A stretch of 64,000 bases of DNA from Hyaloperonospora brassicae (lineage: Eukaryota; Oomycota; Peronosporomycetes; Peronosporales; Peronosporaceae): NCBI GenBank assembly GCA_947650285.1, contig CANTFL010000106.1:310001-374000 (forward strand), written 5' to 3'. The translations under genes were made by a program, and so were the position numbers. Below the pieces are notes generated by a model. The model saw nothing but the letters and a program-made list of their open reading frames with translations, was not told the origin of the DNA and made no database searches. Numbering within the stretch: position 1 is the first letter of the stretch; the number at the start of each line of letters is the position of its first letter. This document shows, one piece after another, positions 34,936-56,007 of the stretch.

Positions 34936-36726
34936 TCAGCTGTAACTCAGTAGCTGCAACGACGTGTACAACATTTGACAGTCAGCCCCGGTTTCAGACG
35001 TCTCTCGATCCATCTGCACAATGTGTTGCGGCGAACTAAAGCTTTGACAACGCTGCGCCAGCGGCTTTGGCACTACTTGGAAAATCTCCAGCACAACATG
35101 CAACCGGGGAATCGAATACTTGCACACGTGTTCCAAGACAAACTTGGTATCCGTTCGCGACGAGTTTGCGGCAAGCCAATCGGCCACACGTTCGGTGACC
35201 AAGATTTGGCCTCCAGCTCCCAGACCTCCGATCTCGTTCGCGATGATTTCGGAAGCGCCAGTGTACGTCAACTTCCCCGTCACGACATGAACATCGCAAA
35301 TGAGAGGTCCTTCCGATTCAGCAGCGTCGTGGACCCCCATGCGGACTCGAAGCCCCCTAAAAATTGTTTTCGTTCTCGCGCGTTCTTTTCGGGTGGCAGG
35401 TATCAAGCCGTGAAGCTCCTTGGGCCATTTCGCGTTGTGCAGATGCATTTGGGCCTTCAGACAATACTCGATGGCTTCTTTGATCGTGTGGAAAGCCAGC
35501 TGGAAAGAATCTCCTGCTGTAGCGATCTCGTACCCGCGGTATGCGGCAAGTAGGGAGCGTATGATGTCGTCATGAATCCGAGTTGCCTGCTGCATGATTC
35601 GACCATCTCCAATAGCCCAAAGCGCACTGGACGATTCAATGTCTGTCACCACAAAGACTGGGTTGATGTAGGGAATATCGTGGCCCCCAGGAGAAGTCAA
35701 GCATTCTTGACGCTGCCGGTATTCCACCTTAATTTCTTCTGGCAAGCAGCAACTCGACCAAGTTACCACGCAGGGCTGGCTGCACCCGGTCACGACAGAG
35801 AACACGAAACCGCGCAGGTAATAGAGCGTGAAGCTCACTCCAGCGTAACTGGACAGAATATTTATATCGCCTGGACACGCGTACAGAATCACGGACGACA
35901 GCTGAAACTGGAAAGCAAAGAGGGCGTACGCTAACCTTTCCAAGCACATTCCGTGTTAGTTGTTGACATTCGAGAAACAGAGAAACCAGACCATTGACCA
36001 TTGGAAGCAAAAATATGATACGTACATGAACCACTTCAGGCGTCGGTAGAGAGGAGAAGTCACAAACTGTCCATGAACGCTTTCGTAACTCCGACCGTTG
36101 ACTTTGAGCACAACCACCGTGATCATCATGTAAATGAACACACCCGTCTGTAGAACGTATACAGCTAGTAGCATCGAGTAGGCATATCGAGAGTAGCCCA
36201 TGTAGCTAATGGCGAGCGCGACTTGAACCAAGAGGAACACTGCAATGCTAACGTGACCGATCATGGAATACAGACGTATCTTTGCACGCTCGTGTGTCTC
36301 TCCACGGTCCATTGAAAGCGCCACGAGCTTTGACATCTCGTACACCAAAGCAGTAACCCATATCAAGATACCAAATTGCGCCGCATCACCAATGATTATG
36401 ACCGTCGTAATCCAGCCATTCTGCTTTTGGATCAGTTGTAGCACGGCGCTCGTTCCCATGCGATAAAGTTCGGTCCTCACCACCGCTTGCACTTGCATGT
36501 CTTCGTAGTCGCTGGTGTGGCTTTCTCCCTCAATCGCGATAGTGAGCCATACGAAATAGGCAAGTCGTGCACTCGAAGTGATGAACTGGCAGATGAAGAA
36601 TACGGCGAGCAGCCATCGCACACTGGAAGCGCGAACTTCCCAGTCCTTGCAAAACTTGAAGACAATGAGGCCAGTGCTTACGGTTGAAAGGGCCAATGCA
36701 GTAATACAAAGGAACGCCCAAATCAT
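34936..36726 (-). CDS. 7TM protein with C-terminal class III cyclase-like domain (paralog 1)
   Basis: Exons 36026-36726 and 34936-35935 join to 566 aa; the intron is described separately. Seven hydrophobic helices fill residues 1-285, with a conserved SMDRG loop after helix 3 and YE(S/N)VxGQFVTSPxYxRL before helix 6. The cyclase homology domain starts with NPVFVVTDIESS. Metal aspartates D332 and D376 (AGDSF) are kept. By alignment to trypanosomatid receptor cyclases the purine-binding Lys is A372, the purine-binding Asp T457, the transition-state Asn I464 and Arg E468. Cyclase activity is therefore doubtful; a divalent-metal or nucleotide sensor role is possible. It is divergent from its three plus-strand paralogs in sequence and codon use. 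The start equals that of paralog 3. Confidence 0.88.
35936..36025 (-). other. Intron of cyclase-like paralog 1
   Basis: 90 bp, donor GTACGT, acceptor GGAAAG, phase 2 (AT|G). It sits in the codon for the Met that begins helix 6, exactly where paralog 4 has its intron. Confidence 0.85.
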
Positions 36727-39700
36727 GCGAGTCGACCCAAAAGAAAAGTGACGGCAAACATCAGACTTCTGAAATGCTCAACACCGAGTGGGACGAGGTC
36801 TGCCGCGTTGTCTGTGCTATTCTTCTGGTCCAAAGACGATTCGCTTCAACGTCACACTACGTAATCATGACTGGTTTACTGTCAATCGGTGAAGGAGCTG
36901 GTAAAAAGTGCTGAAATCCACACAGGCACTGTCAACAGCTACTGTAGTGCTCGAAAAAATCCGTTGGTGGTCGTTCCCGTCCCAGGTCCTGATATGGGCG
37001 ACGAGGTCTGTAACTTTATTTTCTAGTATTAAACGGCTGCTGCGTGCTGTCAGGATTACTATTGCATCGATCAGTCGTTGCGCTACCGAGTGAACGCTTG
37101 AAGTCGGCGACAAGTCGCTTCAACAAGATCTCCTGGTGGTTCAGTACCCGCGGCGACAAGACGCTTCAACAAGACCTCTCGATGGTTCAGTACCCGCAAA
37201 ATATATCCCGGGTTAAGCTAGGACGTATTCTAGGCGACCAAGCTGACTTGCAAGTCTAACTTGGCAGATGAGGGGTGTTGACCCACATTTGCATGATGCC
37301 TGCGATGAGTCACAGATGAGGCTTTGGGTCTAAAGACTCCACTCAACTCTGAAAGGCGATTGTCAGATGTCGGATAACATGTTCCATCAACCTGTCAGGT
37401 CAAAGGCTTGCGACACTTACGGGACACTTATGCGCTGGTCTTTATGCGCCAGGCTACACATGAATGGCGTGTCAGTCAAATGGCCAGGGCATTCTCAACG
37501 TCTGGGTCGACTCGTGAGCTGATAGGGAAGCAGTCACTACGATTGTAAAAGCTCACACTTCGAGACGATTTACCAGTGCTGATTGTCGTCGCGCCCATCC
37601 TGTCCGCGGAGTGTGAATTCCCGTTTATCAAGCTGCGGTTGGAAAGGACCAGATGTGGACAGATGTCAATCGGATCGTTCAGTTCTAACTACGGCAAACG
37701 GTCATCATGAATGGTTTGTCGTACAGCAGCTACCTGAGCTGTGTGCGATGCCAACAAGGACGAGAACGCAGCATGAAGTACCGATACCGAGCTTCGACTT
37801 CTTGCAATCAGGCAGTCGAGCTGGCACATCTGCATCGTACCGTATCCCGCTAATGATGTAGCCTCGCACACAAAGGAGCTTCGATACCGGCAAGCTTATG
37901 AAAAAGCACGAAAGCCACGTAGCTTCGTGACATCTGATACTTCATACCGAGAAGAGTATGGTGACTGAGTAGATAGAATTGCTTCTGCTGCGGCAAAGCC
38001 ATCGTCAGTGAAGGAGATGCCGTCAGCCACAAGTGCCAACGATCATCCAAAAACACTGATTACCAGTCCAGGTACACGTCATTCATCTGTGAAAAGCAGG
38101 CAGTCAGGCGAATAGCTATTGCTGGAGCAAAGTTTCAGCGTGCTTTGCTGGTGGCATACATTTCTCGTGTACCTGCCTTCACATAGTTCGTCCATTCGTC
38201 ACAAACGTTAAGCGACTAAGCCCACCTTGTCCCTCGTCGTTTTTCTTGCAGCTTCGCGAACCCTGCGACTTTTTCGTGCTGCTAGAGTGCCATCATGTAC
38301 GAGCTGTACGATATGGTCCGCATGCATCGAGCAGCAAGGCCCTACCTATAGTGCGCAGTCCTCTTCGCACTACTCCTTTTGTGATTATAGCTCGAACGTT
38401 ATGCTCGAAGCAGCGGCATGATAGCTTGGCTCGGATATCAACGTCACGTACAAATTCGAAGCCGGCGGTGATGACAGCGTTCGTGCAGCGTACTGACACT
38501 CTTGCAAATGCGACATTAGTGCAAGTTATCATCCCTTCCATTGAGTCGAGCCTGAGTGCCCGTCCGGTTGTATCTGATAAAGTACTGAAACGGATCATAG
38601 CACGCTGCTGCTATTCGACAGCACTGTTCGAGAATACAAACGAGGACACGGCCACGCACATGCTTTCTTGCCTCTCATACGTTTATCTACATGACAAGCT
38701 TTGTCCTATATAACCTGGTCTTATGAATAGCTCTCGTGAAGCGTGCATCCATTACCTTGAATCGTCTACAAAACTGTGGGTGGCAATGCCTGTACTAGTG
38801 ACTCCGCTGTTGTGACGTTGAGGCAAGCATCGTACTCATGTCTGCCGTTCGAGAATGCTCTTGCATCACTGACCGCCACCAACTCGCCGTGATGTTTCGA
38901 ACGCCTCCTCGATTGAGTGTACGACTTCCTGTCTGCAATTCCGTATCACAGCTATCATTGTACGTGTCTCGGATGCTGCATTTGCTGAAGGCCGGTTCGA
39001 GCGATTGGGAAGCATCTCCTGTGTAAGTTACAGAAGTTACAACGCAATTGGTACCCAGTCGTCGATTTCGGTCATCGCAAAATCTTACCCACTCGATTGT
39101 ATCCCAAGCGATACTGCACAGCAACTTGACATGATCGATCCTGAGCTTGATGTCCAGCACACCGAAGCGTGTGAGTCCAAGATAAGGCTCACCGATCGCA
39201 GGATGCTGGCTCGAAGGACCTCTGCATGACTCTAGCGTAGCTTTTCATGATCTAGCTATACCGTGTAGGTCGTCGATCGTGCAGGAACTTCATGTCGACA
39301 ATCGACTTCCCAGAATGTCCGACTAACGCGATCTGCAGCATTGCAGCTATGGACCGTATTTTTACTGTTTAGACGTCGAAGTCGCATTGTCTTCCACTTT
39401 GTCCACCGTACACTTTCGTTCGGACCGAAACGATGAAAGCTGGCCGAACATGGGTCGTGCTTTCCTGCAATGCTCCTGTTGTATCGTTCATTATTACCGT
39501 TCCCACGTGCATCATCTACTACGCTCGCCGTCCCATATCACGTGGTACAATACTGTCAATGATTGAGACCTTGTGTTCCGTATGTATTTCATGCCCAATC
39601 TATAGACGGCAGAGGAAATATGTCGAAGAACACTGTGGTGCGAAAGGCCAGCGATCGTCCATACCAACGATGAGTTGAGAGTGCGAGAACAGGACGAAGT

Positions 39701-41338
39701 GGGACCAGCCGTGTGCTCCCGTGACAGCGGATGCTGTCGCAAGGCTGAATACAAAAAGCTGTGCTATGGAGTACTACTGGGCGTGAGAGGATTCCATGCT
39801 CAGTACTCTATGGCACGGCATCAACGATGCTCTACTTCAGCTTCATGCGCCATGACATCATACCCGTCGCTGTACTATGTTGCTTCGAGACGATAAGCAT
39901 GACGTCTGCCGCTGGATGCGATCATTCAATGCGTGTCTGTACAGACGCTGACTCGAACGATGCTGGATAGACACTTCTTTTCAGATGTTCGGTGTTGGTG
40001 GCTGCGTTTCGTAGCGATCATGGTAACTAGAGAGTTTGCTGTCGGTGTAGCGCTAGACACTTTTCACATAGACTCGATAGAGGTGTCTGTGGAAATTGTT
40101 GAGTGCCTCAGCACAATCTTCATCTTCAGTGTTGCCGTCCACCACAATGTATGGTGAATAAGTCATACCATGCACCCAACCAAGTACTACCACGTAGACC
40201 GACGATGGCGGCAAGGTGTAGACATCCCGCATCTTGAGTCGTAACTTGTGTAAAGGCCGTTGGTGCAGCGCTCCAGCAATGATGTCAACCCATGTTGTAG
40301 ACGTATCGCATCCGTGACAGGTTCATCGTATAAAAAAAGGGCACCATTGATGCAGTGCTTACACACGGCACGACTATCGATCCCTCTTGTTGGCGCTACG
40401 AGGATCACGCGGCAAGCGTTTGTAAAATAAGGTGACCTGAGACAAACACGATGCTCGTTCTGCAGCGAGCTTTTCTAGGCCGCCTGCTGCCAACGTCCAT
40501 GCTAGGATGGCGAAAATGAGCACAACGACGCCCCGGTACGTAATATTCAATTGCGTTGCTGTACACGAGAGGGTATGGACTAGTAACTCTTAGCAATGTG
40601 GAAAGACAAACTGTTGTGTTGTTGCGCCGCTGACACTTGTGATAACTTGATCACCTTTATCGTGAGTGTACCGATACTGCGTTCACATTCGTGCAGCTAC
40701 TGCAGTGGGCGTTGACGCAGTATTTTACAGAATGACCGACGTCGACATGTGTTGCACAGCTAGTGTCCTACTTTTTGGCCTCGAGCAAAGTCTGCTATCC
40801 GTAAGCGGTACGACGACTTTGTCCGCTTCACTACCCTCACACTATGTGAGCGCCACACAGCCTGCGAGCGTTTCCTACGCGTACCAGCAGTTCATGCCAA
40901 CGACATCTGACGGTCAATGCTCGGCAACGAATCGCGCAAGCTCGTAATGAATGCCTGAGCCGTGTGTTGACTCAGTTTGCAACGCCCACATTCAATTGTC
41001 GTTCAATGTGCATAAACGTTCGTCAATACGCTTCTTGTGCACGCCGTTTGTGCCATACGCTTGGGCAACGTCAGCAAGGCCAGCGTGGTCCCTCACGACC
41101 ATTGTTCATACTGTATCGATGAACATGAGCACACCTCCGACAAACGTCCGCAAGGAACAAACACGTCGGATCGAATCCGTCGAAATAGATTACTTCGGCA
41201 ACCCCCGGTCCGCAGCTTCTATTGTTGTTCGTCTTCTGTGCGGCGGCATTTCTATCCCACGATTCCATTTCTTTCCAGTCGCGTCAGACGTCGTCTCGCC
41301 CCCGCTTTAGTGACCCCCTTGCCACCTCGGCTTCCAGC
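36727..41338. other. 4.6-kb gene-poor interval
   Basis: No gene is supported on either strand. A 46-bp tandem duplication lies at 37106-37197. The right end holds the presumed promoter of the dysbindin-like gene, with CCATTTC at 41265-41271 matching the initiator core about 70 bp before its ATG. Confidence 0.5.
37106..37197. repeat. 46-bp tandem duplication
   Basis: Two units, 37106-37151 and 37152-37197, both starting GGCGACAAG and ending GGTTCAGTACCCGC, with a few mismatches. No known structure or gene is associated. Confidence 0.85.
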
Positions 41339-42392
41339 ATGCTCGGCTTCCAGTACGTCGTCGCCAAGTCGCGCGAGCTCTCGTCGGCGCTCGACCGCGA
41401 GCTCTCCGCCGTCAGCAGCCGCGCCGTTCCCTTCCGCAGCGTCCCCAGCAGCGCCTCTGTCGAAACAGCGGCGTCGAACGGCGCAGGGGCGGCGACAGAC
41501 GCTCCCGCAGCGTCCCCTGTGCTCGACCGTCAAGAAGGCCACGCGTTTCTGGCGGTGCACCACCAGCGACACGCACAGGCCGTGCGGAACCACCAGCAGC
41601 TGCTAAAACAGTACGTTGTGTACCCATGGGCTGGAGGGTGACCCTGTACGCTGCAGTGGGTGTCGAGATACTGACGTTATTCCCCGTGGGTGCGGGTTGG
41701 GGGGGTGACTTGTATTCCACGATAGGGGGCACGCACTCGACGCGGCCTTGAGCGCTGCTCGCCTGAAGCTCGAGACTGAAGCACAGAGTGAACAGTACGT
41801 GACGCAGCACTTTCATCTCGTGTCGAACGTGCGGCAGCAGCTCGCGCAAGTCCGGACGCTGGTGCTCCACGTGGTCGAAGAGGCCGACCACGTCGAGGGT
41901 TTGCTCCTGGAGCGCTGTGAAGAGCGCGCAGCGCTGCAGAACGCAGAGGTTGCAGCGACGCAGCAGCAGGAGCTCGAGCGCTTTGAGCTGAGCATTGCCG
42001 AAGAGTCCGAAGGTCGTCGACGGGAGTTGCGCGAGAAGAGGCGCGAGAAGTTGGCGAGTGCGTTTGCGAGCGATCTCAGGAGGTATCAGACGCTCGGGGA
42101 TCGCCTCGAAGATGCCGGCGGTACGAAAGGAAGGATGGTGGTGACAGAGGAGGACGGGGGAGTGACGCTGGACGAAGTGGATTTGGTCGTTGCGGCCTAT
42201 GCGGCGCAGTTGGACGCGTTCTACGACTCGGGATCGGAACGAGACGAGGAAGAAGGTGTGGACGCGAAGCCTCGGACATCTCTGGCGTCGGAAGTGCGGG
42301 GAAAAGAAGGAGCAACGAGTGACGAGACGACCGCCGTGGTCCAAGAGGTGGCTGCGGCAGGAACAGGTGATGCATCGATGGTGCGTCAGTAG
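41339..42392 (+). CDS. Dysbindin-like BLOC-1 subunit
   Basis: Exons 41339-41610 and 41726-42392 join to 312 aa; the intron (GTACGT...GATAG, 115 bp, phase 2) is required because the first frame stops at 41639. The protein is a long helical coiled coil: a heptad-rich segment with HFHLVSNVRQQL, an acidic LLLERCEERAAL block, then QQQELERFELSI and a basic RREKLASAFASDL segment followed by an acidic tail. This order and spacing resemble the dysbindin core (LCGQCELER, QQLENYKK, KFFEEAFQQDM). Dysbindin is a subunit of BLOC-1, which acts in endosome-to-lysosome-related-organelle trafficking. The match is by eye and coiled coils mislead easily, so the family call is moderate; the gene itself is well supported. 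Confidence 0.62.
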
Positions 42393-43629
42393 ACTAAGCA
42401 AGTGATGAGACGGCGAAGGCGGCAGAAGCCATTGAACAGAGGACAGGTCTGAAGACGGAGGAGATGGTACAGCGATAAATGCAGGAGCAGCCGAGCGCGG
42501 GTTGACGTGACACGGACGAGCACGACGTGTCAAGTGCGCTGGCCAGCCGATATTTATGAACAAACAACACAACGTGGCGCGTGAAATGAGGACGCCCATG
42601 CCCAATAAATGGAGGAAGAGACTCGAGCAAGCAGCGCTGGTGTCCGTCTTCGGTGGAAAGTGAGGACGGATGTCCCCAACGAGCGCTCTGCCGTACGCGT
42701 CACTTGCCTCTCACTCGTTTCGAGACGGTCAGGAGTCGCAACAGCAACGACAAGAATCGTGCAGCAGTAGCCATTACTCGGAGTCAACTGGAGCACACAC
42801 AGGAAGAGGGTATTGCGACGGAGAGTACCAGTCCATTGATACAGTTACCTGCACAAGCAGCAGAGACATCTCGAGAGCGCTGCAACCAAAAGCATGACAG
42901 ACACATCGTAGCTGTCGTTCCAACTGAGACCCGTCGTGTCCCTTTGAGCTTCCCAGTCAATATGTTTGTGGCCTCCAGATCCCATACCAACACCTTCGCC
43001 AGGTTTCACGTACCTCTACACATATCGGATACCGACCGCGCAGGGCAAACGTCCACAGGTCAGTGCACCACAAACCTCTAGCAACGTCACTTTCTAACTG
43101 CACCATGAGCTGCCGTGTGTCCGACTTGTTCGACGCTATCGGCCGTCTTGACGAGAGGTTCACTAGTGACTGACCAACAACGTGCAGCTTGCAGAGTAAG
43201 GCCGCGTAGGGCAGGTCCCAGCTTTCCCGTAATCAGTCGGCCCCCCGCACACCCACGTGTAGCCTCGAGCCTCTACAGTCATCGACAATGCCGCTGTTGC
43301 ACACGCGCATTACCGCCACACAGCTGGCAGCGAACGCTTCTCGTCCACATGACGTCCCCATCAAGTGGCGCCGAGACCCAGTCCACGCACCAGATGGAGC
43401 ACATCCCTTGACCTGTTTACCTGATCGGCGCTCGCAAACGTCGTCGCTGCTCCTGCTGCTGCTGCACTCGAGAGCATCAGCCGACTCAAAGAGCTCCCCA
43501 CCTTTCCCAAAAGCCCCATACCTTTTCGAAAAGCTCCATACCTTTCTCGAAAGCGAGCGGTCTACATGCCCGTGCCCGGTCTTCGCCGCCCCTGTCGCCC
43601 ATTGCATTGCACTCCCGCCGTCTTTGCGC
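42393..43629. other. Intergenic region upstream of cyclase-like paralog 2
   Basis: No gene is supported. The frame of paralog 2 stays open upstream to 43288, but the composition there is unlike the family. Near 43496-43556 an imperfect repeat of CCATACCTTT(T/C)(T/C)CGAAA occurs two to three times. Confidence 0.5.
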
Positions 43630-45390
43630 ATGGCGGACCTGACGTACACTGTCTTGGGCCTCGCGTCGCTCGTGCTGTCCAACCTCTCGACCGCGCTCGT
43701 GACGGTCAAACTGTACCGCGCGTGGGACTACCGCGTCTCGTGCGTCCGCTGGCTGTTCCTCACGTTCTTCGCGTACCTGTGGCTCTCCACTGTCGCGCGT
43801 GGCGGCGTCTACGTCTGGACGCTTGTCCCCCTGCTGTCGCGTCCCGACGTGGCGGCCGCCCCGCTTCCGTCCTCGGCGCTCGACGCCACGTCGGACATGC
43901 GCGCGCCCCGACCGGCGCTGCCCACGCTCGTCCTGAGCCTCTGCGACGTGCTGCACTTTGCCGCGGCGCTCTGGGCGCTGCCGCTCACCTACGAGCTGTC
44001 CAAGATCGCGGCCAAGTCCATGGACCGCGGCACGAGCAAAGAACAGGCCAAGATCCGCATGTACCTCGTCGTCGGCCACGCGGCGATCGCAGCCTTTGCG
44101 GCTGCCGAAGCCGTCCTGAGCGTCCTCGGCGGCGGCTACTCGCGCCGCACGTACCGCCTCGCGCTCGGCGTGTACGCGCTACAGCTCGCGACGCTCGTGT
44201 ACATGGGCGTCGCGCTCTTCGCGCTCAAGCGCCGCGGCCGCGACGTCGAGTCCATCAACGGCCGCTTCGAGGCGTCGCCCGTGTACCAGCGGCTCCAGCG
44301 CATGCTCTGCGCCTACGCGCTCTGCGCGCTGCAGTACGAGTGCGCGTCGCTCGTCATGGCCGTCACGACAGACGCGCGTCGGTCCGCCTGGACACTGCAC
44401 TACCTCGAGCTGAGCCACGTGCTGTACAACGCCACGGGCTGCGCGCTCGCGCTCGCCACGGGCTGCAGTCTGCCGTGCACGCTGCGCGTCTGCGGCTGCT
44501 GCTGCCCCGACGAGCTGCTCGTGCAGCTCGTGGTCGAGGCCAACCGGCCGCACGTGCGCGGCGCGCACAAGCGCAGCAAAGTCGTGGCCGCGCCCGTGTG
44601 TAACCCCGTGTTTGTCGTCACGGACATTGAGTCGTCCAGCGCCTTGTGGGCCATTGGCGACGCCAAAGTCATGCAGCGCGCGATCCAAGTGCACGACGAC
44701 ACGCTGCGGGCGCTGCTGGCGCTGTACCGCGGCTACGAGATCACGACGGCCGGCGACTCGTTCCAGTTGGCGTTCCACACGATCCGCGAGGCCGTGGCCT
44801 ACTGCCTCGACGTGCAGCTCCAGTTGCTCGCTGCGCCGTGGCCCAAGGACCTCCACGGCCTCGTGGCCGCGACCAAGAAACTCCGCGTCGGCCACCGCGT
44901 CGTCTTCCGCGGACTGCGCGTGCGCATGGGCGTCCACGACGCCATGGGGTCGGACGGCCACCTCCACCAGAGTCCGCACGCTGTGACCGGGAAGACGGTC
45001 TACACGGGCGCAGCCGAAGTGCTCGCGGCCGAAGTGAGCGACGTGGGCGCCGGCGGGCAGATCGTCATCACGCGGCGCATTGCCGAGTGGCTCATGGCCA
45101 ACAGAGACGCACTGCCGCGCGACTTTCGCGTCACGTACTTGTGCGACTATTTGGTGCCGCACGTCAACATGCACGTGGCCGTGTACGAAGTGCTGCCGGA
45201 CGCCCTGTCGCAGCGCCAGCGGATCTTTGCCAAGGACCAGCACAAGCGCATCCCGCAGGGGGCGACCGACCGGTCCACGTCGGGCTCGAGCGGCCGCCAA
45301 AGCAGCTTAGGAACGCCCATCGGGTCGCCCACGTCGTGGTTCTTCCCGCCCGACACGCCCGAACGAGGACCGCGTGCGGTCCGACAGTAG
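43630..45390 (+). CDS. 7TM protein with C-terminal class III cyclase-like domain (paralog 2)
   Basis: 586 aa, intronless. I set the start at 43630 (MADLTYTVLG) because it aligns with the starts of the other paralogs. Seven helices occupy about 1-290, with KSMDRG after helix 3 and DVESINGRFEASPVYQRL before helix 6. The cyclase domain begins NPVFVVTDIESS. D332 and D376 (TAGDSF) are the metal ligands. The Lys position is Thr (EITTAGD), the purine Asp is Val (TVYTG), the transition-state Asn is Val and the Arg is Glu (EVLAAEV). The C-terminal tail is Ser/Pro-rich. Third codon positions are almost entirely G or C, much more so than in paralog 1. The intron present in paralogs 1 and 4 is absent. 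Confidence 0.88.
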   Translation: MADLTYTVLGLASLVLSNLSTALVTVKLYRAWDYRVSCVRWLFLTFFAYLWLSTVARGGVYVWTLVPLLSRPDVAAAPLPSSALDATSDMRAPRPALPTLVLSLCDVLHFAAALWALPLTYELSKIAAKSMDRGTSKEQAKIRMYLVVGHAAIAAFAAAEAVLSVLGGGYSRRTYRLALGVYALQLATLVYMGVALFALKRRGRDVESINGRFEASPVYQRLQRMLCAYALCALQYECASLVMAVTTDARRSAWTLHYLELSHVLYNATGCALALATGCSLPCTLRVCGCCCPDELLVQLVVEANRPHVRGAHKRSKVVAAPVCNPVFVVTDIESSSALWAIGDAKVMQRAIQVHDDTLRALLALYRGYEITTAGDSFQLAFHTIREAVAYCLDVQLQLLAAPWPKDLHGLVAATKKLRVGHRVVFRGLRVRMGVHDAMGSDGHLHQSPHAVTGKTVYTGAAEVLAAEVSDVGAGGQIVITRRIAEWLMANRDALPRDFRVTYLCDYLVPHVNMHVAVYEVLPDALSQRQRIFAKDQHKRIPQGATDRSTSGSSGRQSSLGTPIGSPTSWFFPPDTPERGPRAVRQ

Positions 45391-45617: not shown

Positions 45618-46796
45618 TCAGCAGTAGACGCCCGGCTTCCGCTTGAGCTCGTCGCGCAGGCCGAGCGAGAAACAGCCGTGTTCGACCAGCTGGTGCGGCG
45701 GCACAAACGAAGCCGAGAGGTGCGTGACAGCGTCCGTCGCGTCCGCACGTCCGTCGTCGTCTTCGTTCACGCTGCGTCGTGGCCGACAGCGGCCCACGTT
45801 GGCCCGCGGCCGTCCCTTGCTCGCTCGTCGCTGTGTCCTACATGCATTGCCACCAGCAGCAGTAGCGCCGCTGTCAAACTCCATCTTAAATATATCCTCT
45901 CCCTCGTCTTCCGAGTGGGTCCATACGTCCACGTCTTCGTCCTCCGTGTCGTCGCACTCTTCGGCAATGCCGTGCGGCCGTCTCGACCGACGACAGCTGC
46001 GCACTTGGCGCTCGTCCCGCTCGAGCGGCCACCCGCTCTGTCCGAGCATTGCAAGCGGTTCTTCCCACGACAGCAGCTGCACCGCAGACGTCTGCGAGTC
46101 GGCTGCCGGGTCCGCATAGTCCGTCCGACTGCAACGCCGTTGCTGCCCCTGCAAACACTTTCCCGCTGCTCGGTCCACTTCGTTCGCTGCCGGCGACGCA
46201 ACGACCGGCAAAGCCGTCACCAACGCCCGTGTCGGGATCTTGATCGGCGCCGACTGTCCCGACGGCCCCATTGCGCCATAGTCACTTCGGTTGGCCACTC
46301 TCCGCGCGCGGAACAAGTGCGACCGCAGCCCAAACACGTACTTGGACGTCCTGTCGTCCCCGGGCGAGCCGCCGCGCCGGCTCTTCGACGACGACCGCGA
46401 GCGGTTCGGTCGACTCGACGTCGAGACCGACCGGCCGCGCGTGCTGCTCGCGTGGGTACTGTTGCTATTGCTACTGCTATTGTCGTCGGGTCCAGTACCA
46501 GTCCACCGTCGACTCGTTGCCACCACAAGCTCCGAGCGTCCAGAACCAGTCAATTGGGTGGCTGTCGTGCGTCGACACGTCTCGCGCCGCACGACCGGCG
46601 GCGTCGGCGCACCGGACGTCGTCACGTCGGGCGTCACGATGTTGAGCGCCCGCAGGTAATTCGCGCGCCAGTTCTTGTTCTTGTTGGCACAGAGCGCCAG
46701 GCGGTGGCTATTGCTGCTATTGCTATTGCTGGTCATTGGCGTCGAAGGAGGCGCAAGTGCCGCGACAGAAGGCGGTCGCTGGCAGGTCATCGTCAT
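45618..46796 (-). CDS. Conserved-looking protein of unknown function (392 aa)
   Basis: I do not recognise the family. The N-terminus is Ser/Asn-rich. A basic, low-complexity Arg/Ser region follows (SRSSSKSRRGG). A short ordered block YVFGLRSHLFRARR comes next, then an acidic stretch with ECDDTEDEDVDVW. The compact C-terminus reads SASFVPPHQLVEHGCFSLG, followed by a basic end. The C-terminal block looks like a short conserved interaction motif. The ATG at 46796 (MTMTC) was preferred over 46907 because the upstream residues look non-coding; a later Met is also possible. A long antisense frame exists but has no protein-like features. Confidence 0.68.
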   Translation of the reverse strand: MTMTCQRPPSVAALAPPSTPMTSNSNSSNSHRLALCANKNKNWRANYLRALNIVTPDVTTSGAPTPPVVRRETCRRTTATQLTGSGRSELVVATSRRWTGTGPDDNSSSNSNSTHASSTRGRSVSTSSRPNRSRSSSKSRRGGSPGDDRTSKYVFGLRSHLFRARRVANRSDYGAMGPSGQSAPIKIPTRALVTALPVVASPAANEVDRAAGKCLQGQQRRCSRTDYADPAADSQTSAVQLLSWEEPLAMLGQSGWPLERDERQVRSCRRSRRPHGIAEECDDTEDEDVDVWTHSEDEGEDIFKMEFDSGATAAGGNACRTQRRASKGRPRANVGRCRPRRSVNEDDDGRADATDAVTHLSASFVPPHQLVEHGCFSLGLRDELKRKPGVYC

Positions 46797-49767
46797 GCGG
46801 AGGTACTCTCCCAACAAACCCCACGCAACTACTGCACTCGCTCTCGCTCTCTTGTGCACGACGTCGCGCTCTTTGCAGCCCAATCCAGTGCGCGTCGGCC
46901 TTGTCACTGATCCTCGAGGTCCGCGTGTCTCGTCTACCCGACAACGTGTCGCGTGCTCTGCGTTCGAAGAAACGACTGGTCACTAACGTCTCGCGAGTCT
47001 TTTTCGCAAGAGGCGACGAGAGACTGTTGCAGCAGCAGCGCCACTAGCAGTAGCAGTAGTGTCGGTCTACACTCGATCCAGTGCACTGTGATGCAATGTC
47101 GAGACGCGAGACGGCGTGGGAAAGCGAGTGCGCGTTCGTTCGTTCGTTCGTTCAGACCGACCAACCGACAACTGCCGGACCGACGACGGGTGGAATCGGA
47201 GAAAAGATCAGGCGATGGACCAAACAGAACGCGTCGGTTGGGACCTGTGGGCCATCAATCGAATCCCAAAGTGCGAGACGCCGACTCGAAAGGCCTACGC
47301 CTGCCAAGAAAAACAAGCGGCTCGTGGGAAAAAAAAGGGGTCCGCCGTACGACTGTCGTCGTGGGCTATTGCAAATGTATTGCGCTTTTTCTAACGGTCC
47401 TGAGAACTCGCCGCTCGACTTCAAACACAGCAGCCGGTCGGGCGGTTGGTCGGGCGGGCGGGCGGTGGGTCGGGCCGTCACTGAGACAAACGAGACCGAT
47501 CGCTGTCGTAGCGACATGTGAGACGTCGCGCATGGGATTCGCTCTGTTCTTTAGTCGCAGTAGTAGTGGTGGGCTTCGTAGTGGTTGGGTTATTAGTGGT
47601 GGGATGACTATTAGTGGTGGTCGGCGAACGTGCGTAGGTGGGTCTCTTGTTACGGCCACTTGCCATCGAGTCGTCCATGTGCTCACGACGGCCAGGACGG
47701 CCACTGCCTCCAATGTTCTCGAACACTCACTTTCCAGGCCATCTGCCATCAAATGTTGCTCTGTCTTGGAGGAAGCAGTAGTGGTAAAAAGGAGGCGCCA
47801 GTGGCGACATATCGTCCGAGAATTCGCGAACGAGCACAAGCAAACAGATGACCGGCTGCGGCACACCGCCGTCGAGATGGTGAGCGAAACGAAGTGCGGC
47901 TCTGTCCTATCGTTGCGTCTGGCCATGGGTCTTGATGACGTGTCAGGTTTACGGCATCGACCGCTCCGGCCAGTCACGCTGTGCCTCATTTGCCTTTTGC
48001 CGATAGAGCTTCGTGGCCTTTTCGTAGAGTGGAAGAACAGAGAACTAACTCTACGGGTCGTAGCGAACATGTCTGGCAAAAAGTCAGCAGTCTGCGTTGT
48101 TTCCTCAGGTAGAGAGAGGGTCCAGTCGACTACGGTATCCGCCCGTATGCAGCGGCGATGCGTGTTGCATTGAGGCACTGGTTCACTACTGGCTTCTAAC
48201 GGATTGATGGCGCTGGTCGGTGACGTTCCAATATCATTTTACAGTATGACAAGACACAGCTTAGTCCTCGCACGGTCGGCCACAGCTGCCCGACCACCAC
48301 GAGAACATCAGGACATCGATGTAGCCGAGAAGCGAGACACGTGCAAAGCAAAGACCAGCAGTGTAGTGTGTAGTCTACGAGACCGTCGCATAATGCGCGA
48401 GACCTACTGACCTACTGACCTACTGACCGACTGCACGGAAGTCGCACTACCGTACCGTCGTGTGGCCTCATTTGCAGCAAACTGACGTGCGAGAGCGGTA
48501 GACGTGCCCCACTGCTGCACGTCTGTTTAGCTGCTCGAGCTGCATGCACAGAGCTGCTGCATGTGGCACGCCAGTCAGTCCCTTGTCCTGCGAGACGGTC
48601 CACTACACGTGCTGCCGTTTACAACATGCACCAGCACGTGCAGTGGCTATAGAGATCACATGTCTCCACCCACTTCGCAACACGGTGTCCTACATTCAAC
48701 AATCGCAGTAGTCGGCGACACTGCTTCGCGACAGGACTGTGGACGCTCGAGCGACAATCGGCTCGCGCAAGTGCTCTTTGCACCACGCGAAAGAAGCGTT
48801 CGGACCCACGTGACAATCAACTCGGCCGACTCACAGTAGTTGGGAGACCGCACGTGTGTGTACACGTCACTGTCTCTCGAGGAAGTTTCGACCCGGTTCG
48901 GACAAAACCTGCTGCTCCACCTCGAAAGTCAAGTCGATGTCAAGCGACTGAGCAGAATGAGGGGACAGAGCTCAACGACACGTCGTCGCAGAGGCGGCGG
49001 TCTATAAGCCACTAAGGTGAACCTAAAGAGACGCGACGGAAGACGCGATGGAAGCAGCATACAGCACGACGAGCCGTTCGTGCGCAGACATTAGTAGCAC
49101 CCGCAGCAGTCTCTGGCTCTCTTGACAACCAACGAACGACATAGTTCGCTCCCCACTTGACAACCCATATGTCGGCCATCCGTCGCGTAGGTCGAGGCGC
49201 TGCCCGGTCCTCTTTTGTGGAAAACCCCCCACACGAGCCCCCACGTCCACTGCATACGCATCTGCACAAGTGCGTTCGTGTGTCTCTGTCCTCTGTGTCT
49301 CGTGGCCGATGAAGTGTGTGTGCGTGTGTGTACAACGCCACGACGTGTCGCGTGTCGACGTTGCAAGTGTCGCGGCTCGGCATTCTCCCGCTCTTTTCCG
49401 CCGCGGATGTCGCCCACTCGCGCGGCGCAATCACATGCAAACGCGACACGACAGTCCGCACGAAGAGAGTCCCCACCCCACCCGTTGTCACTCACTCACG
49501 CAGTCACTCGCTCACGCAGTCACTCTGTCAATCGGTCGAGCACTCAGTCAGTTAGTCGGTCGCCGTCACTCGGAATGGACCGTTGAGTTGACGACGGACG
49601 GACGGACGGACTACGGACGACAGACAGACCGACAGACCGACAGACGGACTGAACCGATTTGCCGGCCGACAGCGCATAGAAAAAGCCACACAACCAGCGG
49701 CTCACCCGCTCCGTCGCCGGCACCACAATCGCCACCAGCTCTTCTTCCTCCACCGCTCGCGCCGCTT

Positions 49768-49773
<6 letters not shown>
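46797..49773. other. 3-kb interval without supported genes
   Basis: Long open frames on both strands (for example 46953-48173 plus and 47366-48178 minus) arise from high GC and simple repeats. An imperfect TAGTGGTGG-type repeat lies at about 47560-47622 and a CTGACCTA repeat at 48404-48430. GACG and GACA tetranucleotides crowd 49588-49650. Confidence 0.5.

Positions 49774-49830
<57 letters not shown>
49774..49830. repeat. TC dinucleotide microsatellite before paralog 3
   Basis: About 28 TC units without interruption, ending 43 bp before the ATG at 49874, so it probably lies in the 5' untranslated region or core promoter. Confidence 0.95.
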
Positions 49831-49832
<2 letters not shown>

Positions 49833-49873
49833 TCCAGCGCCGCCAGCGCCGCCGACGGGGCCCCACGCCCACT

Positions 49874-51772
49874 ATGCTGTGGACAGCCCTCGCCGTCGTG
49901 AGTATGGCGCTCTCGAGCCTCGCCACGGGCCTCACGATGGTCCGTCTGCGCCGCAGTTGGGACCTGCACGTGTCGAGCGTCCGGTGGCTCTTTTTCTACC
50001 TCTTTGCGTCGCTGTGGCTCTGGAGCACCACGCGCGTGCTGTACCTGCTATGGGTGAGCGTCGACCCCATTGAGACGTCCATGTCGGACCACGCGTCGTC
50101 GGCGTCGACGGCCGACGAGGTCGTGTACGACCGCTACAGCCGCATGGGCATTTACACGGTCCTGCAGCTCGAAGAGACGCGCGACGCGCTCGCGACGGCG
50201 CTGCTGTGCGCGGGCGACGCGGCGCTCTTTGCCGTTGCGCTCTGGATGTTCCCGCTCACGTTTGAGCTCTCGAACATTGCGGCCAAGTCGATGGACCGCG
50301 GCGTCGAGAAGGAGAAGAAGCAGATCACGCGCTACGCGTGGACCGTGCACGGCCTCGTGCTCGTGTTTGCAGCTGTCGAAGCGGCGCTCGCGACGGCCTA
50401 CGGCGGCTACACGCGGTCGACGCAGTGGTGCCTCGTGAGCGTCTACTTGGTGCAGTTTGTCAGCTTTGTCTACATGGGGTGGCTCATCCTGCGGCTCAAG
50501 CTCGGCGGCCGCAAGTACGAGAACGTCCAGGGCCAGTTCGTCACGTCGCCCGTCTACCAGCGCCTCAAGCGCATCATGATCGTCTACGCGCTCTTTTCGC
50601 TGCAGTTTCAGATCGCGTCCGTCGTCATGTACGCGCTCACGGACTCGGCCGAGCAGCTGCTCGACTTGATCAGCGTCAGTCTCTTGCTCTACCACCTCTC
50701 GGGCATGGCGCTCGCGGTCACGACCATGTGCAGTCAGGCCTGCGTGCTCAACCTCTTTCGCCCGTGCTTGCCGGACCACATTGAAGCGCAGGTGCAGACG
50801 CGGTTCATGCAGGGCGGCGACCTCTTGTCCCCACGGGACACGCAGGTGCTCATTGAGTCGGCCGAGCCGCCGTTGGTGAACCCCGTGTTTGTGTTTACGG
50901 ACATTGAGTCGTCCAGTGCACTGTGGGCCATTGGCGACGGCCTCGTGATGCAACGCGCGACGGAGATCCACGACAATATCCTGCGGGCGTCGCTCATGAA
51001 GTACAGGGGCTACGAGATCACGACGGCCGGCGACGCCTTCCAACTCGCGTTCCACACGGTGCGCGAAGCGGTCGAGTACTGCCTCGACGTGCAGCTCCAG
51101 TTGCTCGTGGCGAATTGGCCCAAGGAGCTGCACGGATTACTGCCCGTGACGAGGAGACAGCGGCTCGGGCATCGCCTGATCTTTGGTGGGCTGCGCGTGC
51201 GCATGGGCATCCACGACGCCGTGGACGCCGACGGCGCTCTGATCCTCGACGTGCACGCCGTGACGGGCAAGATGATCTACACGGGCGCGTCGGAAGTCAT
51301 TGCGAACGAGATTGGCGACTTGGGCGACGGCGGCCAAATCCTCGTCACGAAGCGCGTGGCCGACTGGCTCGTCATGTACGAAGACCTGGTGGCCATTGCC
51401 TTTCTCGTTGACCGCGTCGGCGAGTACTCGATCCCGCAGATCAAGGCCAAGCTCGAGGTCTACCAGGTCCTACCAGAAGTGCTGAGCGGGCGCAAGAAGA
51501 TGTTTTCCTCGACGCTCAAGAAGCGCCGCGCAACCACAACGTCGTCCGTCTACTCGATCGCATCGAGCAATCGGTCGCGCCTGTCGAGCAATGGCGGTCC
51601 GATCCCAATGCCCGAGCAGCTCCGTCGAATGTCAAGACCGCAGGCGCTGGTCCCGCCGCCTGATCTGGTCGTGCCGCCGGTGCAAGGCGGCTTGAGTCGC
51701 TTTGGTCGAGTCCAGCGGTCGTTTCTGCGGCTCGAGCACGGCTCGTTTTACACGCGAGCGACCAGCATGTAG
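49874..51772 (+). CDS. 7TM protein with C-terminal class III cyclase-like domain (paralog 3)
   Basis: 632 aa, intronless. Helices lie at about 3-23, 38-62, 108-137, 157-177, 187-210, 234-255 and 262-287. KSMDRG follows helix 3, and KYENVQGQFVTSPVYQRL precedes helix 6. The cyclase domain begins NPVFVFTDIESS with D343 and D387 (TAGDAF) as metal ligands. The purine Lys is Thr, the purine Asp is Ile (MIYTG), the transition-state Asn is Val and the Arg is Glu (EVIANEI). The last 120 residues are Ser/Arg/Pro-rich and probably disordered. The start codon directly follows a TC microsatellite leader. An 84-bp stretch is almost identical to paralog 4. Confidence 0.9.
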   Translation: MLWTALAVVSMALSSLATGLTMVRLRRSWDLHVSSVRWLFFYLFASLWLWSTTRVLYLLWVSVDPIETSMSDHASSASTADEVVYDRYSRMGIYTVLQLEETRDALATALLCAGDAALFAVALWMFPLTFELSNIAAKSMDRGVEKEKKQITRYAWTVHGLVLVFAAVEAALATAYGGYTRSTQWCLVSVYLVQFVSFVYMGWLILRLKLGGRKYENVQGQFVTSPVYQRLKRIMIVYALFSLQFQIASVVMYALTDSAEQLLDLISVSLLLYHLSGMALAVTTMCSQACVLNLFRPCLPDHIEAQVQTRFMQGGDLLSPRDTQVLIESAEPPLVNPVFVFTDIESSSALWAIGDGLVMQRATEIHDNILRASLMKYRGYEITTAGDAFQLAFHTVREAVEYCLDVQLQLLVANWPKELHGLLPVTRRQRLGHRLIFGGLRVRMGIHDAVDADGALILDVHAVTGKMIYTGASEVIANEIGDLGDGGQILVTKRVADWLVMYEDLVAIAFLVDRVGEYSIPQIKAKLEVYQVLPEVLSGRKKMFSSTLKKRRATTTSSVYSIASSNRSRLSSNGGPIPMPEQLRRMSRPQALVPPPDLVVPPVQGGLSRFGRVQRSFLRLEHGSFYTRATSM

Positions 51773-53990
51773 TAGTCGCCCTAACTTATTTACTATCTAC
51801 GAGCTCACCGTAAAGTCGCTGGTTAGGTCGGTCGATCCCGGTCGACTAAAGAGCAGAAGAATCGCACAAAGCGTCACGTCGCACAAAGCGTAGCGACAAT
51901 TTTGGAAAACTTGTGAGTGTGTGTGTGTGTCCTGCAACATGTCATGGTACACTGTTTGAGAAGGTGGTGGGTGTTGTTGGCGTAGCTGTTCTCGGAAGTA
52001 CGTCGTTGTCCTGAGTATGATGAGATGTTGAGTACACGGACTCGGTAGCGACCAGTGCAAACGCTGGTCAATTGACTATCTTTCAGTGACGTATTTGTAT
52101 GTGTGTAGGCTCTAGGAACTCATCTCAAGCAGTTGAGGCGACATGAATGAACGTGTCGGATCATGTCCAACTTGACGGTATTGCAGCTAAAGAGAATCAA
52201 TCGAGAAGAATGTACGTAGGAAGGCACACACGAGGTCAATGCCTATGTCCAGTGGCGCTATGTCCATTGCCAATGGCTGCCAGTGTCGTGATACAGTCTC
52301 TGTCGGTAGGACTTCGAGACTGATGGAGAGAGACAAAAAGTTTGGGGACAAGGCGTCACGTCGTCAGAACAAGCGGACGTTTGGCACAGCTGATGGATAT
52401 GGGCTGTCTGTATCGGAGGTCATAGTGCGCTATCATGACGTCTGCTTCATTGACCACGAATGAACCAAAGCTCGACAACGTATGCGATCGAGAGAGTTTG
52501 GATTGCCGCGAGAGACTCGTGTCGTTATCTGCCGCTTTGCGTTGTGGCTATCAATCGCTGCGGGTGGGCACTGCAGCCACGAGATCAGAGCGGCAGACGA
52601 CGCGTTGCAGCTGTGCTTATGCGTTGGCACGGAGACTGTCGAGCACAAGCAAAGAGTCCTACTGCAATTGATCGACGCTGCTTTGCCAGAAATACTGCAC
52701 TCGTGACCGTTCGTTACACGAGAGGTAGACAGACTGAACAGGCACTTCAGTTCCCTATCTATCGCTCTGTGTGTCGTCGCACGTGGAAGCGACGACGCGC
52801 TGGTCAACTCAACTCGACGGTGGACATCTTTTTCCCACGTCTGCGCATTTGTTTCTCGAGACTGTGTCTCCTGCCAGAAGAAAAAAGTTTCACGACGACA
52901 CGTGCGACAACTCACTTAGCGAGCGCACTACGCACGTCGTTTCGACCACTGACACTCACTCACACGCCCCCACACACGTACATACGGTCTTTACCGTTCG
53001 CGCCACTGGCGTAACAACACAACGATAGAAACGTCGACGCTAAATGTCGTTGTCGGAATGCTATGCGCTGAACAAAAGTCCTCAGCAGCTCAGCCAGCAC
53101 AGTATCAGAACAAAAAGAGCTTTCACGACTGTGAATTGCATCACGTTACTTAACAGACACACACTGGTACGTCTCCACAGTTTGTCGATAGTCTATGCGT
53201 ACAACGGACAGCACAGCAAATGTACTTGCGGTTGGTTGCTTTCGTATTCGTATTGTGAGGAACAATGTGTGCACGTAAAGTCGGCTTTGAACATATCGGC
53301 CGACCGTCTGAGGCATGTGGAAAAGCTTCGATTGTTGTGGTCGTACAGTTTCAACTGTCCGAAGCGATATTGATGTAGCGCATATCGTTTCTAACCTGTT
53401 CCAAAATGTCAAATTTAATGGCACCACTTTGCAGGTAGCAACGTCTCGTCGCAACTGCGCTCTATCAAGCAGCATATACGTATACTTTGACGTGTAACAG
53501 CTTCCACAATGTCGACGGTAGTCAGTCGCATTGCGTCCGTTCACGTGTGTAAATGTGGGCAAAGTGTAGCCACAACATCTCCAGTCCGTCGCGTCGCAGA
53601 CGGTCGTCAAACGTGTCGTGATTGTTGCGTCCCGCGACACGCCACGACCCCACGACGACCGACCGACCGGCCGATCAATCGGCCAGAAAGTGTCGGTCGG
53701 TTCCGAGCCACACGCTCTCACTCGCAATGGCTGAGTTCGCAGCCTTCAACCGACCGCAGCCACTCGCAAGAAGCGCACAGCACAGCACAGCAACGTGCAG
53801 TCAAAAGGCAAAATTCGTTCCTCTGCGTTCGCTCTCGCGCCGTCGCTCTCTTCATGTCGGACGACGCCGTCTCCAGCCCCCACTCTCTATTTATACTCCG
53901 CGCTTCGACCCCCTGTACCTCTTGCCGTTGCAGCAGTCGCGCAGCCATTAGTTGAATTGAGGCCGCGCTCTTCTCTCTCTCCTCTCTCTC
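51773..53990. other. Intergenic region between paralogs 3 and 4
   Basis: 2.2 kb with only short or antisense frames. A GT-rich run (TGTGTGTGTG) is at about 51916-51930. Pyrimidine-rich sequence (CTCTCTCC) directly precedes the ATG of paralog 4. Confidence 0.5.
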
Positions 53991-54729
53991 ATGTGGACGA
54001 TTGTTGCCATCGTCACCATGGGCTGCTCTTGCCTGGCAACGGGCACGACGACCTTAAGCCTGCGGCGGTCCTGGGACGTGCACGTCTCGAGCGTCCGGTG
54101 GCTCTTTTCCGTCTTCTTCGCCTGCTACTTTGCCTTTACGCTCAGCCGCGTGGTCTATATGATCGTCGGCGTCGCACGGCCGTGGGAGTCCACGACGACC
54201 GACGTGTCGATGCACCTGCTCACGACGCGATACAGTACGCTCGGCGTCTTTTCTGTCCTGCACTTCAAAGTCTCACATAACGCCGTCGTCACGTCACTGC
54301 TCGTTATGGGCGACTCGGCGCTCTTTGCCGTGACGCTGTGGACGTTCCCGCTCGTGTACGAGCTCGAGCTCATTGCTGCGCGGTCGATGGATCGCGGCGC
54401 GTCGAAAGAAGCCGAGCAGATCCAGTGGTACCAGTGGCGCGTCTGGTTCCTCGTCGCAGCGTTCGTAGCGGTCGAAACAGTGCTCGCAGCCGTGCGAGGC
54501 GGCTACACCACGTTCACGCAGCGCTGCTTGCTCGCCGTGTACTGTACGCAGTTTGTGAGCTTCTTGTACATGCTGCTGTGCATCGCGCGGCTCAATTGGC
54601 GCGGCCGCAAGTACGAGAACGTCCAGGGCCAATTTGTCACGTCGCCCATCTACCAGCGCCTCATGCGGATCATGTACGGACGGCACTGCTCGTGCACCAA
54701 CTCGTTGCGAATCGGACGACCTCTAACGT

Positions 54730-54800
<71 letters not shown>

Positions 54801-56007
54801 TGCGGACGTGTGCAGGGCCATCTACGCCATCTTTACGCTGCAGTTCCAAGCAGCTTCGGCCGTGCTGTACGCCATGCCGGACCAGGAGTTCAAGTTGGTC
54901 AACTTGATGAGCGTCAGCGCGCTCGTGTACTGCGTCTCGGGCGCCGCGCTGGCCGTCACGACCATGTGCAGCCAGTCGTGTCTGCTCCGGCTCTGTCGGT
55001 GCTGCCTGCCCGACGACGTCGAGGCGCAGGTCGAAGCGCGACTGCTGCAGTCGGGCGAGCTGCTGTCGCCGCAAGAGACGCTCGTGGCCGTCGAGTCGAT
55101 AGAGCCGCCGCTCGTGAACCCCGTGTTTGTGTTCACGGACATCCAGCAGTCGAGCGCGCTCTGGGGCGTCCGCGACGGCCTCGTGATGCAGCAGGCCACG
55201 GAGATCCACGACGACCTCTTGCGGTCGCTGCTGCGGAAGTACAGAGGCTACGAGATCACGACGGCCGGCGACGCCTTTCAACTCGCGTTCCACACGGTGC
55301 GCGAAGCGGTCGAGTACTGTCTCGACGTGCAGGTGCAGCTCCTCGACGCCCCGTGGCCCAAGGAGCTGCACGGGCTGTTGGCGGCCACGAAGAAGCTCCG
55401 TGCAGGTCACCACGTGATCTTCTGCGGCCTGCGGGTCCGCATGGGCATTCACGACGCCGTGGACGTCGACGGGCCACTGGTGCTCGACGTGCACGCCGTG
55501 ACGGGGAAGATGACGTACACGGGCGCGTCCGTCGTGATCGCCAACGAACTCGGGGACTTGGGCGACGGCGGGCAGGTGCTCGTGACCAAACGCATTGCCG
55601 AGTGGCTCTTTATGTTTGCAGACCTCCTCGCAACGCCGTGTTCGGTGGACCGCATGGGCGAGCACGCGATCCCGCTGATCAACGCGTTGGTTGAGGTGTT
55701 TCAGGTCGTTCCCACGGAGCTCGCGAAGCGCAAGTCGGTGCTTTCGACAACGCTTCCACAGCGTACAGTTGCAGTTGCAGTTGCTGCACATGCGGTTAGT
55801 GAGGGTACTGGTGGTGCGACTGTGTCTGGATTGAGCACTGCCGCAGCGGCCCGTCGACGCGAGTTACATGCGTCGCGTGAACGTCGACGGCAAGTGGAAC
55901 AGGGGGTGTTGATGGACCGCCATGCGTCGCAGTACGCATTGCCAGGCACGGATGGGGCGGTGCACGGAGCGAGTATACCATGTCACGACGACCAATGTGA
56001 CGAATGA
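53991..56007 (+). CDS. 7TM protein with C-terminal class III cyclase-like domain (paralog 4)
   Basis: Exons 53991-54673 and 54816-56007 join to 624 aa (1,875 coding bases including stop, in frame). Seven helices as in the family; RSMDRG follows helix 3 and KYENVQGQFVTSPIYQRL precedes helix 6. The cyclase domain begins NPVFVFTDIQQSSALW: the Glu after the first metal Asp, conserved in the other three, is Gln here. D336 and D380 (TAGDAF) remain. The purine Lys is Thr, the purine Asp Thr (MTYTG), the transition-state Asn Val and the Arg Glu (VVIANEL). The C-terminal tail is Ala/Arg-rich. Without splicing the frame reads into low-complexity sequence after the TC run. Confidence 0.88.
54674..54815 (+). 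other. Intron of paralog 4 with embedded TC microsatellite
   Basis: 142 bp, donor GTACGG, acceptor GTGTGCAG, phase 2 (AT|G), the same position and phase as in paralog 1. An uninterrupted TC tract at 54732-54796 makes up nearly half of it and ends about 20 bp before the acceptor, where a polypyrimidine tract would be expected. Confidence 0.88.
54732..54796. repeat. TC microsatellite inside an intron
   Basis: About 32 TC units. Length changes here would not affect the reading frame but could affect splicing. Confidence 0.95.

Follow-up and report, generated by a model that had tools for sequence, protein, structure and literature searches.

The window analysed here is a 64,000-nucleotide stretch of the genome of the oomycete Hyaloperonospora brassicae (contig CANTFL010000106.1, C48 in our numbering; C48:310001-374000). 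It contains four paralogous genes, A to D, whose products, judged by their sequences, are members of the published oomycete GPCR-AC class of GPCR-bigrams, in which a receptor part related to G-protein-coupled receptors (GPCRs) is joined to a class III cyclase domain. We find that this cyclase domain is very probably the C1-type half of a class III cyclase. With less assurance, we favour a whole explanation in which cyclic nucleotide is made together with the C2-type half of a separate, predicted soluble protein that carries two cyclase homology domains in tandem (CHD1 and CHD2). The GPCR-AC family would then look dead alone because its other half is likely on that separate protein. The genome searched comprised 100.6 Mb in 898 contigs, and the features are as follows, in window coordinates.

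34936..36726, minus strand: gene A, GPCR-AC; exons 36726..36026 and 35935..34936; 566 aa; PF00211 E 7.7e-9
35077..35658, minus strand: cyclase domain of A, probable C1 type, approximate ends; C1 profile 160.7 against C2 60.7 bits
35643..35641 and 35511..35509, minus strand: metal Asp codons of A, Asp332 and Asp376
43630..45390, plus strand: gene B, GPCR-AC; single exon; 586 aa; PF00211 E 3e-8
44608..45189, plus strand: cyclase domain of B, probable C1 type, approximate ends; C1 162.7 against C2 74.8 bits
44623..44625 and 44755..44757, plus strand: metal Asp codons of B, Asp332 and Asp376
49874..51772, plus strand: gene C, GPCR-AC; single exon; 632 aa; PF00211 E 7.1e-11; structure modelled
49874..50755, plus strand: predicted 7TM (seven-transmembrane) domain of C, residues 1-294
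50879..51475, plus strand: cyclase domain of C, probable C1 type, approximate ends
50900..50902 and 51032..51034, plus strand: metal Asp codons of C, Asp343 and Asp387
53991..56007, plus strand: gene D, GPCR-AC; exons 53991..54673 and 54816..56007; 624 aa; PF00211 E 1.8e-11
55117..55713, plus strand: cyclase domain of D, probable C1 type, approximate ends; C1 169.5 against C2 67.9 bits
55138..55140 and 55270..55272, plus strand: metal Asp codons of D, Asp336 and Asp380

A preliminary description, made from the letters of the window alone, had placed the four genes at these coordinates and numbered their metal-binding aspartates, and our gene models agree with it throughout. The models of B and D are letter-identical to database proteins (P0084, and the H. 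brassicae protein P0033, respectively), and the introns of A (90 bp) and D (142 bp, containing a (CT)n run) are both of the GT-AG type. The Pfam cyclase family PF00211 is above cut-off in all four proteins (E 1.8e-11 to 3e-8), and a degenerate DNA pattern for GD[SA]FQLAFH has four matches in the window where 0.01 would be expected. Each protein has a predicted N-terminal 7TM domain followed by a C-terminal class III cyclase domain, the layout of the GPCR-AC bigrams. The seven helices that had been proposed are predicted both by the AlphaFold2 model of C and by the hydropathy of A to D, and, set against class A GPCRs, the predicted 7TM part has a GPCR fold, with no Pfam GPCR family found in A to D at E <= 1. 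In C, the loops rich in Lys and Arg are predicted to be cytosolic, and its cyclase domain is therefore predicted to be cytosolic as well.

Four of the six canonical active-site residues are replaced in every copy, exactly as had been read from the translations. The purine-binding Lys is Ala in A and Thr in B, C and D; in the order A to D, the purine-binding Asp is T, V, I and T and the transition-state Asn is I, V, V and V; the transition-state Arg is Glu in all four. A tally of these residues across the family, which had been suggested as a check, gave the same picture. Among 150 aligned GPCR-AC rows (148 distinct sequences, two rows repeating B and D), the first metal Asp is present in 148 and the second in 149, the remainder being gaps, and no row has the purine Lys or Asp (one gap at each position) or the transition-state Asn or Arg (two gaps at each). 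The relatives were the best 120 of 222 matches and, in a later search, the best 120 of 144, of which 26 were new; the matches listed by this later search held no GPCR-AC from Saprolegniales, so the tallies cover the listed matches only. A homodimer of this domain would have its metal aspartates and would lack both the purine Lys/Asp and the Asn/Arg pairs. Pairs among A to D cannot complete a site either, since none carries Asn or Arg.

Two trivial accounts of the pattern can be dismissed. The first is that the Lys, Asp, Asn and Arg equivalents are misplaced and lie elsewhere in the domain. However, the residue equivalences come out alike in phmmer and in profile alignments to the solved structures of Trypanosoma brucei GRESAG4.1/4.3; the structure model of C agrees, with strands at 380-385 and 388-393 on either side of the K383/D387 positions and a helix, 472-483, that contains positions 475 and 479; and a check free of alignment, made on the 139 of 148 distinct sequences with the anchor motif (nine lack it), found no N...R ahead of GGQ. 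The second is decay into pseudogenes, against which stand the open frames, the constraint across the family and the ratio of nonsynonymous (dN) to synonymous (dS) change: dN is below dS in all ten computable comparisons out of 12 attempted (dS was not computable in two, and exceeds 2 in the remaining ones that involve A). The earlier argument that shared substitutions reflect constraint rather than decay is thus upheld, with none of the 148 distinct GPCR-ACs having any of the four residues.

The C1 identity of the domain is well supported by comparison with the tandem cyclases of algae. Profiles were built from 59 of 70 algal CHD1s and 62 of 70 CHD2s that passed a length filter, and 123 GPCR-AC domains were scored (from 124 alignment rows, two of which repeat B and D). 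The C1 profile beats the C2 profile in all 123 (medians 163.2 against 60.9 bits), and does so again in 123 of 123 (74.0 against 32.0) when the active site, about 39 residues per domain, is masked. Oomycete tandem proteins scored in the same way (49 of 50 CHD1s and 49 of 50 CHD2s after the length filter) have a CHD1 nearer the C1 profile (85.3 against 44.0) and a CHD2 nearer the C2 profile (145.8 against 72.0). A tree was made of 64 domains: 60 of 342, chosen partly by hand and partly at random, three further GPCR-ACs and T. brucei. Its bootstrap had not settled. In this tree the CHD2s of algae and oomycetes split from everything else, namely the CHD1s, the GPCR-ACs and T. brucei (96/83), and algal CHD1s and GPCR-ACs form a group without T. 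brucei 1fx2 (99/91). A single algal CHD1, P0210, has a long branch that meets the GPCR-ACs, where it may be misplaced. The usual dinoflagellate-type CHD1 signature, TMVFTDVQGSTS...GYEVTTEGDAFQ...GLRVRMGVHSG...HEVTGRxRYAGxSVAxAKAxE...GGQ, closely resembles that of the GPCR-ACs. With the metal Asp present, Asn and Arg absent and the grouping with C1 domains, the GPCR-AC domain has what characterizes a C1 half.

These comparisons also refine what had been said of the domain at first. The signature given as TDIESS...GDSF needs small corrections, in that C and D read GDAF and D reads TDIQQSS. 'Trypanosomatid-like' is apt in that the T. brucei cyclases (1fx2, 1fx4) are the nearest solved structures; they have all six residues in our alignments where GPCR-ACs keep two, and it is the algal C1 domains that are closer in the tree. 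The suggestion of another chemistry is not supported: the pattern matches a C1 half of a heterodimeric cyclase, and the same replacements occur in the C1 domains of algae.

A candidate for the other half is encoded in the same genome. The tandem gene L002 (protein P0121; G000:C712:83611-87042), the sole gene of its kind that our searches found there, encodes two cyclase domains and its product is predicted to be soluble, its highest 19-residue hydropathy being 1.32; two of 50 oomycete-type tandem proteins exceed 1.6. Its CHD2 has the purine Asp570, Asn577 and Arg581, keeps RADYFG...NQTAR, and has F and G at the metal Asp positions and thus no metal Asp, while its Lys position is Gln501. Its CHD1 has neither the metal Asps nor the Asp/Asn/Arg set. 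A C2 half whose residues complement those of the GPCR-ACs therefore lies within this genome.

The oomycete relatives of L002 share this arrangement. For the relatives as a whole we took the best 120 of 137 matches: 50 oomycete-type proteins (34 from named oomycetes) and 70 others (P0171-P0240) from dinoflagellates, green algae and further sources, which include an oomycete-like fragment (P0213) and three proteins with a broken or missing CHD1 (P0225, P0226 and P0230). In the 50 oomycete-type CHD2s, the purine Asp, the Asn and the Arg are each present in 49 (one gap each) and a metal Asp in none. The 49 that cover CHD1 never have the first metal Asp (S in 48, T in one) or GD[AS]F. Among the 70 others, 65 CHD1s have the first metal Asp (five gaps) and 66 have GD[AS]F; in their CHD2s, the Asp is present in 68, the Asn in 67 and the Arg in 68. 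Conservation is turned round as well: when oomycete proteins are compared in pairs, CHD1 is less similar than CHD2 in 953 of 1081 pairs (47 proteins), against 344 of 1540 pairs of algal proteins (56 proteins). Taken together, the oomycete tandem protein has lost its metal-bearing half, and a half of the same kind is kept under constraint on the receptors; the receptor domain may descend from that lost half or from another C1. Tandem and GPCR-AC queries match each other in the genome through CHD1 (weakly, E 0.012-0.034; E 5e-6). Many dinoflagellate-type tandem cyclases (among P0172-P0240) also carry PF05517 (p25-alpha), and several green algal ones carry leucine-rich-repeat families, and three tandem cyclases carry PF00909.

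In the sequences, then, a C1-type half is seen on the receptors and a C2-type half on the tandem protein, with complementary residues, and their pairing in trans is likely. Receptor C1 and tandem C2 would face each other at the membrane in a single shared site, to which the receptor would bring the metals and the soluble protein the contacts with the base and the transition state; a ligand of the 7TM part would control the pairing or its geometry. A purine Asp favours ATP. The product could be cyclic AMP (cAMP) or cyclic GMP (cGMP): the purine Asp of the tandem C2 points to ATP, but its Lys position is Gln. A precedent comes from chytrids, where the catalytic domains of RGC2 and NeoR are each inactive alone and active when mixed (PMC12264004, in the part that describes this assay), so that membrane-receptor cyclases can work as heterodimers. 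The genome also contains 21 matches to cyclic-nucleotide-binding domains and five to phosphodiesterase domains, one with stops.

Several observations weigh against this explanation. At the C2 Lys position, all 50 oomycete-type tandem proteins have Gln, and the other 70 relatives have Gln in 64 cases, Lys in five and a gap in one; Gln and Asp in the tandem CHD2 make an unusual base-recognition pair. The dead C1 of the tandem protein is still conserved, and may itself occupy the C2. The model of the tandem protein contains no canonical C1:C2 pair and has no usable geometry, so that it is uninformative either way. Cyclases of other kinds exist in other oomycetes, such as the channel-cyclases in zoospores of Phytophthora parasitica (cited sections of PMC12223298 and PMC6033456), and one study is cited as having found cAMP and cGMP unchanged during zoosporogenesis (PMC5322657, in the passage concerned).

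A more elaborate form of the same idea is a subunit exchange that leads from receptor to second messenger and needs no G protein, which we put forward tentatively and hold to be possible rather than probable. The tandem cyclase would be silenced by its dead C1, an activated 7TM receptor would swap its live, metal-bearing C1 onto the C2 at the membrane and turn the enzyme on, and several receptors could share one C2.

Another possibility, unlikely in our estimation, is that the receptor domain is a non-catalytic allosteric module, either a metal or nucleotide sensor or a dimerising regulator that tunes another cyclase without completing its site. Four of six catalytic residues are absent in every copy, and the degenerate site in the NeoR/RGC heterodimers appears to exert allosteric control (PMC12264004, relevant section). 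Metal aspartates that are missing only where the alignment has a gap speak against such a module, however, as does the grouping of the domain with C1 halves whose CHD2 partners hold the matching residues; a pure sensor need not retain exactly the two residues that a C2 of the same genome lacks. The idea of a dimerising regulator of a true cyclase, voiced in the preliminary description, nevertheless comes close to the explanation that we favour.

It is also improbable that the GPCR-AC domain is a C1 half served by a C2 other than that of the tandem protein, such as a channel-cyclase, a soluble adenylyl cyclase (sAC) type enzyme or an undetected C2. The channel-cyclases of P. parasitica zoospores (PMC12223298, cited part) could offer one such partner. 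The genome itself could offer another: a PF00211 search, which scores the best candidates only and passes over domains as divergent as the tandem CHD1, found seven places, namely the four GPCR-ACs, one on C712 and two adjoining ones on C198 that are taken as one gene. The C198 gene, presumably ADCY10-like by comparison with human motifs, has C1 motifs FADVSGFT and FKFAGDA and a C2 with INKFLVDDKG and VVNLSAR, and hence the Asn and Arg. This gene, however, has a C1 and a C2 of its own, for which reason we reject it as the main partner; no further cyclase was found by PF00211, within the limits of that search; and the tandem C2 and the GPCR-AC C1 are members of one C1/C2 family.

Still less probable is a plain GPCR with a dead cyclase tail that signals through heterotrimeric G proteins, a scheme that a review by van den Hoogen and Govers considers conceivable (its model E, with an inactive cyclase domain; PMC6033456, in the section on that model). 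A tail of this kind should not be under more constraint than the 7TM part, as the cyclase domain is, its dN/dS being the lower one in all four pairs computable for both. Moreover, in this one assembly, searched exon by exon, the G-alpha family PF00503 has no match above cut-off, a mammalian G-alpha-i query gives only short matches at query residues 171-253, which we read as small GTPases, and a P-loop pattern has no match; this is an absence in these searches. Since 24 phosphatidylinositol phosphate kinase (PIPK) domains were matched, such searches do work on this genome, and the lack of a G-alpha match weakens the plain-receptor reading. A sole G-alpha is reported for Phytophthora sojae (PMC7010300) and one G-alpha for oomycetes (PMC5784254), in the passages cited, and decay of flagellar genes is known from the related H. 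arabidopsidis (PMC3471859). Least probable of all, an active adenylyl cyclase homodimer with non-canonical residues would fit the published name, given by domain annotation, and the Pfam match above cut-off, but the purine Lys and Asp, the Asn and the Arg are missing throughout the aligned rows and neither the alignments nor the model give any alternative placement.

The split site that we favour resembles known systems and departs from each of them. In mammalian membrane adenylyl cyclases and in soluble guanylyl cyclase alpha/beta, the site is divided into a metal half and a half for the base and the transition state. The halves are on one chain in the former and on two soluble chains in the latter, whereas in the oomycete case a predicted 7TM receptor carries one of them. 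PMC12264004, in the part consulted, states the pseudo-heterodimer principle and describes the chytrid RGC1/2-NeoR enzymes, which are likewise fusions of membrane receptor and cyclase and form heterodimers with one catalytic site. Both chytrid partners are rhodopsin fusions, in contrast to the soluble tandem protein proposed here and to the GPCR-like 7TM part. The GPCR-AC domain is like the CHD1 of dinoflagellate and green algal tandem cyclases by profile, tree and signature, and the oomycete tandem protein shares their two-domain layout. Most algal-type tandem cyclases, however, have both halves on one chain with the C1 metal site intact, while in oomycetes the tandem C1 has lost its metal site and the metal-bearing C1 is on the receptors.

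Contrary to the first impression that no role had been described for such a family, it is published. The GPCR-AC class was described in 2018, with four members in Phytophthora infestans and none reported outside oomycetes, and is expected to act in cAMP signalling (PMC5784254 and PMC6033456, in the sections cited). The bigrams of these papers have the 7TM part and C-terminal cyclase domain of A to D. They treat the domain as an adenylyl cyclase and, in those sections, do not discuss the missing residues; here it is read as a C1 half, not expected to act alone. P. infestans homologs were among our matches (P0004, 85% identical to C; P0022, 64%; P0054, 49%), and a homolog from Phytophthora agathidicida (P0016) bears the database name 'GPCR-AC 2'. 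In searches of the open-licence PMC literature (on GPCR-AC, oomycete cyclases, class III heterodimers, dinoflagellate cyclases, and G-alpha and flagella in downy mildews), we found no account of the GPCR-AC active site or of the tandem protein.

Homologs have adjacent locus numbers in several species (DVH05_009981/009983, PRNP1_011594/011595, Poli38472_013737/013738), an indication that this cluster may be an ancient tandem array. Between C and D, at 52575-52823 of the window (C48:362575-362823), a weakly matching scrap of a GPCR-AC cyclase domain, interrupted by a stop (E 0.07), is possibly a dead tandem copy or chance. Outside the window, a fifth GPCR-AC copy survives at G000:C369:186998-188134 as a remnant broken by in-frame stops, whose best piece has E 1.6e-15; it was located with P0112, a Phytophthora member of another subfamily. 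The rest of the window includes a Copia-type retrotransposon at 12346-16588 on the minus strand (gag 15752-16588; pol 12346-15807, which has integrase and reverse transcriptase domains), a splicing-factor-like gene with HAT-repeat, RRM and Lsm-interaction regions at 24562-27615 on the plus strand, and, at 56158-57699 on the minus strand, a GH17-like gene with a proline-rich tail, below the Pfam cut-off (25.5 against 28.2 bits).

The family itself is known; what appears to be new is that its cyclase domain is a C1 half-enzyme and that a conserved tandem protein has the missing half. The review mentioned above suggests, in the part concerned, expressing a GPCR-AC in yeast with cAMP as the readout (PMC6033456). 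If a C2 is needed from the tandem partner, a test of the GPCR-AC alone could give a false negative without co-expression. Should our explanation be true, an enigmatic published family would become a testable two-component system, with a candidate partner gene named for the oomycetes surveyed. The explanation also offers a possible mode of action for 7TM receptors where searches find no G-alpha, and would make the family an example of a single active site divided between receptor and soluble partner, the one-chain form of which is still visible in algae.

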